Below, one piece after another: positions 8,563-12,691 of a stretch of DNA of 64,000 bases. This stretch comes from Brachybacterium sacelli. Lineage in GTDB: Bacteria > Actinomycetota > Actinomycetes > Actinomycetales > Dermabacteraceae. Numbering within the stretch: position 1 is the first letter of the stretch; every line of letters begins with the position of its first letter. The position numbers and the translations under genes were made by a program. The notes beneath the pieces are model-generated. The model was not told where the DNA came from. It saw only the letters and a list, made by a program, of their open reading frames with translations, and did no database searches. Location: positions 2,728,001 through 2,792,000 of the forward strand of contig NZ_JAGIOD010000001.1 of NCBI RefSeq assembly GCF_017876545.1, in the 5' to 3' direction.

Positions 8563-9587
8563 GCAGCTCCACGCCGCGGGGCGCGCAGGGAGCGGAGACG
8601 GGCCCGGGTGCGGAGGCCGGCCCGGGTGCGGAGGCCGGACGACTGGACCAGCGACGGGAGCCGTCGGCCGCGGGGTCGGATCGGGACCCGACGGTGGGGA
8701 GTCCGGATCACGACCCGTCGGCCGGGGATCTGCTGCTGACAGCGCGCGACATCCGCCAGCTCGCCGAGGAAGCCGGGATCCGGCCCTCGAAGCAGCGCGG
8801 CCAGAACTTCGTGATGGACCCCAACACGGTGCGCACCATCGTCGGCCGCGCCGACGTCGCCGAGGGCCGGGCCGTGCTCGAGGTGGGACCGGGCCTGGGA
8901 TCGCTCACCCTCGGTCTGCTCGAGACCGGGGCCGACGTCGCCGCGGTCGAGCTGGATCGCGGCCTCGCGGAGCTGCTGCCGCTGACGCTGCGGGCCCGGG
9001 GCGTCGCCGAGGACAGATTCCGTCTCGTGCACGACGACGCGCTGAGGATCACCGAGCTCCCCGAGCTGCCCCGCACCGGAGCGCCGACCGTCCTGGTCGC
9101 GAACCTGCCCTACAACGTGGCCACCCCGATCCTGCTGACCATCCTGGAGCGCTTCGAGTCCATCCGGTCCGCGCTGGTCATGGTCCAGTCCGAGGTCGTC
9201 GACCGGCTCACCGCGGGTCCCGGGTCGCGTACCTACGGCGGCCCTAGCGTCAAGGCCGCGTGGTACGGCCGCGCCGTGAACGCCGGCCGCATCTCACGGC
9301 ACATCTTCTGGCCGGTCCCTCACGTCGACTCGGCCCTGGTCGAGCTCGTGCGGTACGACGAGCCGCTCGGCGGACCCGAGGAGCGTGAGCAGGTGTTCGC
9401 CGTCGTCGACGCCGCTTTCGCTCAGCGTCGCAAGACCCTGCGCGCCGCGCTCGCGAGCTGGGCCGGCAGCGCGGTGCGGTCCGAGGAGATCCTGCGCGCC
9501 GCCGGTATCGACCCGGGTGTGCGTGGGGAGACGCTCGGGATCGAGCAGTTCCGCGCGATCGCCCGCGCGAGCGGCGGGATCACCTGA
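8559..9587 (+). CDS. rsmA: 16S rRNA (adenine1518-N6/adenine1519-N6)-dimethyltransferase
   Basis: 342-residue RsmA/KsgA that dimethylates two adenines at the 3' end of 16S rRNA. Visible are GQNFVMDPN, motif I EVGPGLGSLT, motif II VAAVELDR, the catalytic NLPYNVATPIL and the VDSALV and FAQRRKTLR segments of the C-terminal domain. ATG 8559 forms an ATGA overlap with the tatD stop and is preferred. ATG 8538 would add seven residues. Residues 1-60 are a Gly/Ala/Glu/Pro-rich extension that includes two copies of an 18-bp repeat (8603-8638). The ispE-like gene follows with a TGATG overlap. Confidence 0.95.
   Translation: MSSSTPRGAQGAETGPGAEAGPGAEAGRLDQRREPSAAGSDRDPTVGSPDHDPSAGDLLLTARDIRQLAEEAGIRPSKQRGQNFVMDPNTVRTIVGRADVAEGRAVLEVGPGLGSLTLGLLETGADVAAVELDRGLAELLPLTLRARGVAEDRFRLVHDDALRITELPELPRTGAPTVLVANLPYNVATPILLTILERFESIRSALVMVQSEVVDRLTAGPGSRTYGGPSVKAAWYGRAVNAGRISRHIFWPVPHVDSALVELVRYDEPLGGPEEREQVFAVVDAAFAQRRKTLRAALASWAGSAVRSEEILRAAGIDPGVRGETLGIEQFRAIARASGGIT
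8603..8638 (+). repeat. two tandem copies of an 18-bp unit inside rsmA
   Basis: 8603-8620 and 8621-8638 are identical (CCCGGGTGCGGAGGCCGG). They encode PGAEAG-type hexapeptides in the non-conserved N-terminal extension of RsmA, and an imperfect half copy precedes them. Confidence 0.85.
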
Positions 9588-10513
9588 TGACGGAGGGCTT
9601 GGACCGGGTGGTGGTGCGCGCCCCCGGCACGATCACCGTGTCCCTCGCCGTGGGCGCCGCTGACGGTCGCGGGGACCGTCGCCTCGCCACGATGTTCCAG
9701 GCAGTGGACGTCTACGAGATGATCACCGCGACCCGGCACGACCGGCTCGTGGCCGGCATCGACGACGTCAGCCTGCGCGAGGAGCCCCGGGACGGGACGG
9801 AGTTCGCCCTCCGCGCTGCGCAGCTCCTGCGCGAGGAGCACGAAGTGACCGACGGGGCCGCGCTCCGGATCCGACGTCAGGTGCCGGACACGGGCGGCTT
9901 GGGCAGAGGAGCGGCCGACGCCGCCGCGACATTGGTCGCACTCGACCGGCTGTGGGGCCTCGCGCTGCCCGGCGAGGAGCTACGCCGTCTCGGGGCACGG
10001 CTCGGGGCGGAGGTCCCGTTCGCGATGCTCGGCCACACGGCGCTCGCTCGCGGCACCGGCGCGGACCTCACCACCGTCCTCACCCATGGCGAGTGGACGT
10101 GGCTGCTGGCCTGCCCGAGTGGCCGGCTGTCGATCGCCGAGGTGTACCGGCGCCACGATCAGATCGCCCTGGCCGTGGGCCGCGACCTTGCCGCGCGGCC
10201 CGAGATCGACGAGCAGCAGTTCCAGGCGCTCAGCAGCGGCGATGCCTCCCTGCTCGGCCGCACCCTGCACAGCGATCTGCAAGCGGCCGCCTTCGCTCTT
10301 TTGCCGGACCTCGAATCATTGGTCGAGGCCGCGGAACGAGCCGGCGCCTTCGGTGCCGTCGTCTCGGGAGTCGGGCCGACGGTCGCGGTGCTCGTCGAGG
10401 ACGACGCGCAGGCGCAGGAGGTCGCCGCTCTGCTCACGAGCGAGAAGCTCGTCGAGACGTGCCGGGTGGTGCGGGGGTCGGCACCCGGGGTGGGTGTGCT
10501 CGAGGAGAGCTGA
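9587..10513 (+). CDS. ispE: IspE-like GHMP kinase with altered catalytic residues
   Basis: 308-residue homologue of 4-diphosphocytidyl-2-C-methyl-D-erythritol kinase (MEP isoprenoid pathway), placed directly after rsmA as in other actinobacteria. The overall pattern is IspE: RAPGTITVSLAVG, QVPDTGGLGRGAADAAATLVALDRLWG, LGAEVPFAMLGHTAL and VVSGVGPTVAVL. Residues that are normally invariant differ. The PGK catalytic Lys is Thr15, the following GYH is GDR, the ATP loop GGGSADAA reads GRGAADAA, the general-base Asp of GADVPF is Glu142, and GSGPT is GVGPT. Length and frame are intact and the reading frame is not decaying. It may be inactive, slow or repurposed. Family assignment is firm, activity is doubtful. 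Confidence 0.85.
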   Translation: MTEGLDRVVVRAPGTITVSLAVGAADGRGDRRLATMFQAVDVYEMITATRHDRLVAGIDDVSLREEPRDGTEFALRAAQLLREEHEVTDGAALRIRRQVPDTGGLGRGAADAAATLVALDRLWGLALPGEELRRLGARLGAEVPFAMLGHTALARGTGADLTTVLTHGEWTWLLACPSGRLSIAEVYRRHDQIALAVGRDLAARPEIDEQQFQALSSGDASLLGRTLHSDLQAAAFALLPDLESLVEAAERAGAFGAVVSGVGPTVAVLVEDDAQAQEVAALLTSEKLVETCRVVRGSAPGVGVLEES

Positions 10514-10885: not shown

Positions 10886-10914
10886 TTGGGTAAGTCGAAC
10901 GGGAGTGCGATAAT
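10886..10914 (+). promoter_or_regulatory. predicted promoter of the HNH gene (TTGGGT-N17-GATAAT)
   Basis: A -35-like TTGGGT at 10886-10891 and a near-consensus -10 GATAAT at 10909-10914 are separated by 17 bp. Seven bases later comes the ATG at 10922, so the mRNA would be leaderless, although AGGTGG within those bases could also serve as a weak ribosome-binding site. Confidence 0.55.
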
Positions 10915-10921
10915 AGGTGGC

Positions 10922-12691
10922 ATGGATGAAGAGGTCGAGGGTGTGAACACCGAGGGAGCGAGGGACCGCTCTGCGGGGAGTGGTGATGCATCCCCGGCTG
11001 CCGACGTCGCTTCCACGCCCGCCGGCGGGCGCGTCAGCGACTTGGCGAGGCTCAGGGGGTTGGTCGTTGCGGCGGGGGTGGGGCAGTTGCAGGTGGGGGA
11101 GGTTGACGTGTCCTCGGCCACGGGCGTGCTGGCGGAGCTGGGCGCGAAGGGGTCGGTGTCGTTGGACGGGTTGTCGGCGCCGGAGACGGTGGATGTGCTG
11201 GCGGGCTTGCGGGAGCTGTCGACCGCGATCGCGGGGGTGCAGGCTCGGGCGCTGGTGCAGTTGGAGGCGGCGGCCAAGGCGGATGCGTTGGCGCGGGGAG
11301 AGAGGCCGCGTGCTGCGTTGAAGGTGGCGCGAAAGGAGGCCTCGTTCGCGTTGCGGGCCTCCCCGTCGGCTGCTGGGCAGACGATGTCGAGTTCGCGGCG
11401 GTTGGTGCAGTCGATGCCGGGGATGCTGGCCGCGATGGCGCAGGGGCGGATCTCGGCCGCGGCCGCGCACCGGGTGGGGAAAGTCGTCGCGGCGGCCAGT
11501 GCCGGGTTGCGGCGGCAGGTCGATGAGGTCCTGATCGAGAATCTGGCCTATCTGGAGGGGTGTGGGGTCCAGGAGTGGGCGGGGGAGGCTGAGCGGGTGA
11601 TGCATGCGTTGGATCCGGAGGGGGTGATGGGGCGGCATCTGCGGGCCAGGACCACACGTGGGGTCACAGTCCGTCGTGGGGACCACGGGATGTGCACGCT
11701 GACGGCGACGGTGACCGCTCTGGACGGGGCGAGGATCCGGAAGGCCCTCTCGCTGGGGGCGGAGAAGGCCAGGGCCCGGGGGGATGGGCGGGGTCACCAG
11801 CAGATCATGGCCGATGACTTCACCGATGTGCTGCTGGGTCGGGGGTCGGGGCAACTGGTGACGACGATGGAGATCGGGGTGATCATCACCGACCGGTCGC
11901 TGCTGGCACCGGGGCATGCTGATGCGGCGACGGTCGAGGGGATCGGCTCTGTGCCCTACGAACACGTGCGTGAGGAGATGCTCCAGGCTGTCACCGCTGC
12001 CGAGGAGGATCCACAGTTGCGGGTGGCGTTGCGCCAGCTCTACACCGGTCCCGAGGACGGGCAGCTGGTCGCTGTCCAGGCCCGGTCGCGAGTGTTCCCG
12101 CCGGCCCTGTCACGGTTCTTGCGGTGGAGTCATCTGACGTGTCGGGCGCCGTACTGTGACGCGCCGATCCGGCAGAACGACCACATCACGCCCCACTCCC
12201 GAGGCGGGGAGACATCGCTGGACAACGGTAACGGGCTGTGTGCGGGCGATAACCAGAAAGAAGAAGCCGGAGTCACTGCCCGGGTGGTTGGCGACGAGAA
12301 CGGCAAACGCCGCAGCGTGGAGTGGACCACCCGGTACGGGCAGAAAGCCCGCCGGTCGGGATACAACTTCGACCCCCTCGGCACTGCCCGACGCCGACGA
12401 CGTGCCCGCGAGCAGTCCGCACACGAACCTGCGGACGAAAGCGACGCGCAGGCGGGGTTCGCGTCGAGGTCGTGGACCACCTGGACCCTCGATGACGTCT
12501 TCGGCCCCCACGGAGGAGAGGACGGCGAATCCCCTCTGTATCGCGGGCTGCGTTGGATCGGCCGACGTGCCTTCGAGGCGACGGATCCCCACCCCGCCTG
12601 GCGGGGCGTGCGACTGAACCGCCACCACCTCCCCCGCGGCAACATCGACTACGTCTTCGACGACTCCCAGCGCCCGCCCCGACCCACATGA
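10922..12691 (+). CDS. DUF222 domain-containing HNH endonuclease (13E12-type)
   Basis: 589-residue protein of the actinobacterial DUF222-HNH family. The N-terminal half is the helical DUF222 region (for example LSTAIAGVQARALVQLEAAAKADA and MEIGVIITDRSLL). The C-terminal HNH domain has paired Cys in CRAPYCDAPIRQNDH, with ITPHSRGGETSLDNGNGLC completing the motif. An Arg-rich tail follows. ATG 10922 is preferred over an in-frame ATG at 10886 because the promoter lies between them. These genes occur in many copies per genome and behave like mobile elements in mycobacteria (REP13E12). The gene uses many TTG leucine codons, unlike its neighbours, and is flanked by DnaA-box-like motifs. Target unknown. 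Confidence 0.9.
   Translation: MDEEVEGVNTEGARDRSAGSGDASPAADVASTPAGGRVSDLARLRGLVVAAGVGQLQVGEVDVSSATGVLAELGAKGSVSLDGLSAPETVDVLAGLRELSTAIAGVQARALVQLEAAAKADALARGERPRAALKVARKEASFALRASPSAAGQTMSSSRRLVQSMPGMLAAMAQGRISAAAAHRVGKVVAAASAGLRRQVDEVLIENLAYLEGCGVQEWAGEAERVMHALDPEGVMGRHLRARTTRGVTVRRGDHGMCTLTATVTALDGARIRKALSLGAEKARARGDGRGHQQIMADDFTDVLLGRGSGQLVTTMEIGVIITDRSLLAPGHADAATVEGIGSVPYEHVREEMLQAVTAAEEDPQLRVALRQLYTGPEDGQLVAVQARSRVFPPALSRFLRWSHLTCRAPYCDAPIRQNDHITPHSRGGETSLDNGNGLCAGDNQKEEAGVTARVVGDENGKRRSVEWTTRYGQKARRSGYNFDPLGTARRRRRAREQSAHEPADESDAQAGFASRSWTTWTLDDVFGPHGGEDGESPLYRGLRWIGRRAFEATDPHPAWRGVRLNRHHLPRGNIDYVFDDSQRPPRPT

Follow-up and report, generated by a model that had tools for sequence, protein, structure and literature searches.

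The subject of this analysis is an IspE-like gene at positions 9587..10513 of a 64,000-nucleotide stretch of Brachybacterium sacelli DNA (contig NZ_JAGIOD010000001.1, positions 2,728,001 to 2,792,000), referred to in full as the window. The window belongs to a 3.14-Mb contig; the genome as a whole measures 4.87 Mb, has an estimated completeness of 100% and includes a second contig of 1.73 Mb. This genome is designated G000, other G-codes denote genomes of the genus, and P-codes denote listed IspE homologues. The relevant features are as follows, with residues assigned by alignment and GHMP motifs as given in the available text of PMC2655357.

8538..9587, plus strand: rsmA (ksgA), whose stop overlaps the start of the ispE-like gene by one base (TGATG)
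9587..10513, plus strand: IspE-like protein of 308 residues, catalytic residues lost (open reading frame, profile matches, alignment)
9623..9646, plus strand: remnant of GHMP motif 1, residues 13-20, PGTITVSL; Lys10 to Thr15, Asn12 to Thr17
9671..9679, plus strand: GYH cytidine-site motif, now GDR, residues 29-31 (Tyr25 to Asp30, His26 to Arg31)
9884..9919, plus strand: GHMP motif 2 (P-loop), residues 100-111, GRGAADAA; Gly to Arg107, Ser to Ala109
10010..10012, plus strand: codon for the equivalent of catalytic Asp141, now Glu142
10364..10381, plus strand: GHMP motif 3, residues 260-265, SGVGPT; Ser to Val262

Overall, this is a full-length IspE homologue in the ispE position behind rsmA, as the initial annotation had placed it. 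The reading frame opens with ATG and runs without an internal stop, and the rsmA stop (region 9585-9589) forms a TGATG junction with it that recurs in G018, G028 and G007. The match to NF002870 spans residues 6-307 and scores 259.7 bits, below the curated cut-off of 286, and the match to TIGR00154 (127.4 bits) is likewise below its cut-off of 138.7. The protein nonetheless belongs to the GHMP superfamily, as both GHMP Pfam domains exceed their gathering thresholds (PF00288, 54.2 bits; PF08544, 46 bits). It is 44-69% identical to full-length IspE matches of the genus, and its named homologues at 53-68% identity are from Brachybacterium, besides Actinomycetales entries. An identical protein occurs on three contigs, the longest of 4,993,006 bp; that length is unlike those of the G000 contigs, which renders a sequencing error unlikely.

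With respect to the active site, the accessible part of the Aquifex aeolicus structure paper gives Lys9 and Asp130 as catalytic and Asn11, Tyr24 and His25 as substrate-site contacts (PMC2655357), while Lys10, Asp141, His26 and Phe185 are named for E. coli IspE in the portion available of PMC11541488. Every residue change listed in the initial annotation is present in our alignment of 31 sequences (27 from the genus, the remaining 4 from other families within the order), and Asn12 to Thr17 is additional. The Lys, Asn, Tyr, His and Asp at these key positions are kept in all 29 aligned sequences other than G000 and G010. More broadly, 97 columns are invariant in the 25 functional genus sequences, and 23 of these are altered in G000 and 22 in G010; in a leave-one-out control, each of the 25 functional sequences differs at only 0-3 of 99-102 invariant columns. 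The excess in G000 and G010 is far beyond chance. The sole lysine of the IspE-like protein is residue 287, so that no neighbouring lysine is able to replace Lys10, a substitution that the initial annotation had raised as a way in which the catalytic position might still be filled.

Profile searches of the whole G000 genome returned zero matches to Dxr, IspF, IspH and IspG, the companions of IspE in the 2-C-methyl-D-erythritol 4-phosphate (MEP) pathway. Seven Dxs matches were obtained; the four among the matches listed cover just the C-terminal part of the profile, and such C-terminal matches also occur in relatives. The one IspD-like protein has its orthologue in a second copy in G018 (85.6% identity) and shares only 27.8% identity with the IspF-adjacent IspD. 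By these comparisons, G000 shows no true dxs or ispD. The IspD-like cytidylyltransferase (C2:56553-57200, L183), which could be mistaken for IspD, adjoins a short-chain-dehydrogenase-like gene. A second ispE, which had been suggested as another source of the kinase, was not found, as the genome-wide search gave a single match. G000 does possess a complete mevalonate cluster, mvaK1-mvaD-mvaK2-fni-hmgR-hmgS, at C1:416867-423238 (L148 4868-11239), with five of the six genes above curated cut-offs and hmgR below. Gene content thus bears out the earlier proposal that isoprenoids are supplied by the mevalonate (MEV) pathway.

The cluster is flanked by rhamnulokinase-like and LacI-family genes in G000 (L148), G014, G016 and the distant G010 (L160, L157 and L149), which suggests an ancestor with both pathways whose descendants kept one or the other. 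The cluster of G018 (L150) is 51-74% identical to that of G000, as against 80-81% for rsmA and tatD, and was therefore probably acquired separately.

Across 38 Brachybacterium genomes, IspE scores above the cut-off in 25 and is intact but below it in two, G000 and G010. One genome, G023, has the gene split (it is 85% complete, and further genes of it are split as well), another, G027, has a fragment containing two stops, and in nine the gene is undetected. The orthologue comparison recommended in the initial annotation therefore reveals changes that are not genus-wide. HMGR was found in 15 of the 38 genomes, each with the six-gene mevalonate cluster. One set of 12 genomes, every one of them with HMGR, showed neither Dxr nor IspG nor IspH, and IspF was undetected in these and in G006 (88% complete). 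In these 12 mevalonate-only genomes, ispE is undetected (nine), broken (one) or intact but degenerate (G000 and G010); both pathways are present in G018, G022 and G024 (the ispF of the last lying in two pieces on two contigs), all with normal IspE residues. Loss or degeneration in 12/12 mevalonate-only and 0/3 dual-pathway genomes indicates that decay tracks the loss of the MEP pathway and not possession of the mevalonate pathway. A candidate HMGR in G012 consisted of weak matches (E 4.6e-9 and 8.7e-4) to two pieces of one frame and was not counted.

Mixed MEP/MEV usage in Brachybacterium is already published: the available text of PMC13001223 reports species with MEP, MEV or both, B. kimchii and a halotolerans species being MEV-only. 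A relic IspE goes unmentioned there, and the words relic, remnant and pseudogen are absent from its main text. Full-text literature searches (Brachybacterium mevalonate, ispE pseudogenes, GHMP pseudoenzymes) listed no report of a relic IspE.

In terms of timing, a species tree of 31 genomes (rpoB, rpoC and rsmA) unites G000, G014 and G016 in one clade (support 100), which joins G018, G028 and G007 (support 100). G014 and G016 are mevalonate-only and show no trace of ispE behind rsmA. The same tree pairs G010 with G011 (100) and G027 with G012 (99), G011 and G012 being MEP genomes; an rsmA-only tree does not recover these pairs and sets the incomplete G003 beside G010. If the MEP pathway was never regained, the mevalonate-only state would have arisen at least four times. 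In G000, G014 and G016, dxr is gone from the same spot, leaving a 37-base remnant that is equally long in all three and can be aligned, and ispG is gone just past the next gene. The ispH gene is also gone at a common place, where G000 has 2.2 kb that the others are without. The simplest reading is a single MEP loss preceding the split of the three genomes, the two sisters then having lost ispE too. On this reading, the G000 branch would have run without the pathway for about 59% of its length or more (0.0110 of 0.0189). In G027, which is nearer its MEP sister than G000 is to its own, the ispE copy is already broken.

The dxr and ispG deletions are almost exact, with the intervening gene kept and short remnants left behind (37 bases and roughly 90-110 bases), in the following regions: G000 C1:2317960-2319560; G014 C1:4273868-4275445; G016 C1:4149068-4150640. 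The gene after the relic in the window (10886-12691) encodes what we take to be a DUF222/HNH-type protein, and a relative of it directly follows rsmA in G014 and G016, which marks the site of the ispE deletion.

Whether the gene is decaying or constrained was addressed with a codon model of 18 taxa and 307 codons (our own MG94-type implementation, with position-specific base frequencies and with branch lengths estimated on the whole gene and then kept fixed), in which nucleotide data for the G000 and G010 relics were used. A set of 45 ligand-contact columns was hand-mapped from the accessible part of PMC2655357 (offsets +6, +12 and +24; Ile53, Ile55 and Leu208 omitted), and the other 262 columns formed the rest. 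At the ligand-contact columns, the nonsynonymous-to-synonymous rate ratio (ω) was 0.022 in the background and 0.267 on the G000 branch, a roughly 12-fold rise (twice the log-likelihood difference, 2ΔlnL, 58.7), and reached 0.336 on the G010 branch. In the rest, ω was 0.126 in the background, 0.166 in G000 and 0.207 in G010. Had relaxation been general and as strong as at the contact columns, the rest should show 0.359 and 0.420; this was rejected for both relics (2ΔlnL 44.4 and 40.5), as was a branch that is 59% neutral (159.1 and 113.5). An earlier site list, picked partly post hoc with the alignment already seen, gave similar values. A second literature list, which includes an ATP loop that we take to be 99-109, also rejected general relaxation for G000 and G010, and at its sites the ω of five functional control branches lay at the optimiser's lower bound (0.0009). 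Its other sites derive from the available text of PMC11541488, PMC12902931 and PMC3340893. A split into invariant and variable columns likewise rejected general relaxation for G000 (p 2e-5), whose variable columns are unrelaxed (ω 0.182 versus 0.183 in the background). The site-specific rise in G000, set against a nearly stable rest, argues that the gene is not simply rotting, and the claim in the initial annotation of substitution under constraint rather than decay, made from an intact frame that we also observe, is backed by this analysis.

The changes gather at ligand-contact residues. Among 97 near-invariant columns of 84 functional sequences, 36 ligand-contact and 61 elsewhere, G000 is changed at 16/36 versus 7/61 (Fisher p 0.0003), G010 at 14/36 versus 9/61 (p 0.008), and the homologue P0051 at 16/36 versus 7/61 (p 0.0003). 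The earlier, partly post-hoc list gave stronger values.

Similar proteins recur outside G000 and G010. In 120 listed homologues and 31 genome sequences, seven lack at least one of Lys15, Asn17, His31 and Asp142; two of the seven repeat G000 and G010, and the further intact cases are P0048, P0049 and P0051. P0049 has mainly lost substrate-pocket residues (K15R, N17A, Y30R, F37L, T183R), still has Asp142 and an ordinary P-loop, and is the sole one of the five degenerate proteins above both curated cut-offs, which suggests that the substrate pocket goes first. A gene tree of 93 sequences (31 from genomes plus P0002-P0064 minus P0056, leaving out P0056, which has the key residues of G010, and P0065-P0120) groups P0049 with P0030 and P0051 with P0038 (supports 0.98-0.99), making both independent of G000 and G010. 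The placement of P0048 relative to G000 is weakly supported (0.0-0.29). Since P0048 may not be separate from G000, the tree points to at least four independent lineages with an intact, active-site-eroded IspE (G000, G010, P0049 and P0051), perhaps with P0048 as another. Common descent of the G000 and G010 changes was considered because the full-length gene tree joins the two (68) and five novel residues are common to them. Once near-invariant columns are removed, G000 moves to G018/G028/G007 (0.976) and G010 to P0014 (0.868), and the species tree also separates them; we read their joining as apparent convergence. The recurrent replacements (Lys to Thr or Arg, Asn to Thr, Tyr to Asp, Phe to Leu) lead toward G/C-richer codons, and base-composition drift at released sites may explain them.

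Taken together, these observations make it likely that the protein is a pseudoenzyme that outlived its pathway, a survivor of the MEP route whose GHMP fold is maintained for a secondary, non-catalytic role. The swap of the MEP for the mevalonate pathway would have taken place in an ancestor of the present species, leaving the IspE-like gene as the last survivor of the abandoned route. In the sequence, constraint on the active site is largely gone and that on the remaining protein is largely kept. The protein presumably still folds and no longer phosphorylates 4-diphosphocytidyl-2-C-methyl-D-erythritol (CDP-ME), which is not made, and its secondary function may already have been present in ordinary IspE. 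Of the options in the initial annotation, a new role is thus the one we favour, short of regarding it as established. One could speculate about a link to the translational partner RsmA, or about nucleotide or small-molecule sensing. The overlap of the two genes is no proof of the former, as the rsmA-ispE order is general among actinobacteria according to the accessible text of PMC1084345. A broader proposal, which we put forward tentatively and regard as somewhat doubtful, is that IspE of Brachybacterium, and perhaps of actinobacteria at large, performs a second, non-catalytic task that preserves the fold after a mevalonate switch, and that a dead IspE thereby came to light on at least four independent occasions in the genus and its near relatives.

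Several observations weigh against retention for a function. The ω of the rest rose too, slightly in G000 (2ΔlnL 4.2) and clearly in G010 (14.2), and for G010 the invariant/variable split does not reject general relaxation (p 0.45). Changes are not significantly concentrated at ligand-contact columns in P0048 (9/36 versus 10/61, Fisher p 0.22) or P0049 (5/36 versus 4/61, p 0.20), and when the five relics are pooled, permutation within residue types gives just p 0.04. Each relic is also a single terminal branch that partly predates pathway loss. Finally, ispE is undetected in the sisters G014 and G016 and in seven more mevalonate-only genomes (including G003, 81% complete), so that the gene is dispensable there and any function would be lineage-specific or minor.

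These absences, together with the broken copy that brings the count to 10 of 12 mevalonate-only genomes, would fit an ordinary pseudogene in the making whose frame was kept by luck, high G+C making stops rare. Several of the replaced residues (K, N, Y, H, F, M) have A/T-containing codons, where drift toward G+C is expected, and in simulations of neutral decay the frame stays free of stops with a probability of 0.10-0.57 over 20-60% of the branch (0.16-0.41 at 36.5%). We nevertheless consider such neutral decay unlikely, given that three column splits all reject general relaxation for G000, that its variable columns evolve at the background ω, and that by the common dxr scar most of the branch postdates the loss. 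If 0.03 indels per substitution are assumed, moreover, the probability of an intact frame at 36.5% neutral branch falls to 0.0002-0.0006.

Less probable again is a kinase of the GHMP family that acts on a new substrate, with a rebuilt CDP-ME pocket and with Glu142 or some other residue as the base. The conservative Asp to Glu change, the normal P-loops of G010 (GGGSADAA) and P0049 (AGGSADAA), and the alteration of pocket residues N17 and Y30 in 5/5 relics and of T183 and P184 in 4/5 each are in its favour. However, the P-loop here carries Arg107 and Ala109, that of P0051 reads GAAAAGAA, the only lysine is residue 287, replacements differ among lineages, and G000 has its own mvaK1, mvaK2 and mvaD. 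A compensated working IspE, or a sequencing artefact, is highly improbable despite the intact frame and up to 69% identity to functional relatives: the latter is contradicted by the identical protein on three contigs, and the former, which the initial annotation had framed as IspE with a different mechanism, by the missing Dxr, IspF, IspG, IspH and true IspD, as enzymes making and using CDP-ME were not found.

Relative to IspE as defined by TIGR00154 and NF002870, the relic thus shares full-length homology, N- and C-terminal GHMP domains and the place after rsmA, and departs from a functional enzyme in its scores below both cut-offs, its catalytic Lys and Asp, its substrate motifs, the loss of a Ser-bearing glycine-rich P-loop and the missing remainder of the pathway. 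Nor does it show the marks of a pseudogene: the frame is unbroken and neutral evolution of the whole protein is rejected (ω of the rest 0.166). The term pseudoenzyme may suit it in view of its lost catalytic residues, the conserved fold being predicted from sequence constraint. Among GHMP-fold proteins, Gal3p is reportedly without kinase activity. XOL-1 is a GHMP-fold regulator for which, in the portion available of PMC11349215, ATP binding was not detected in vitro, which illustrates that this fold can serve without catalysis; both are eukaryotic regulators that have the GHMP fold in common with the relic. MEP genes are also retained in mevalonate users such as Listeria and some Enterococcus and Streptococcus, according to the accessible text of PMC13001223. 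An orphan IspE annotation may also occur in staphylococci. The partial pathway of Listeria runs to 2-C-methyl-D-erythritol 2,4-cyclodiphosphate (MEcDP), whereas here one enzyme is left, and without its catalytic residues.

Brachybacterium therefore appears to present a pathway replacement caught in progress within one genus, with dual-pathway genomes, gene-by-gene deletions and one leftover enzyme whose active site is free to vary while the remaining protein is not. Profile-based annotation may label such a relic a kinase, which calls for caution. If the constraint reflects function, then IspE, a studied antibacterial target, does more than isoprenoid synthesis, and mevalonate-only Brachybacterium would offer a separation of functions made by nature in a drug target that is supposed to serve one purpose.
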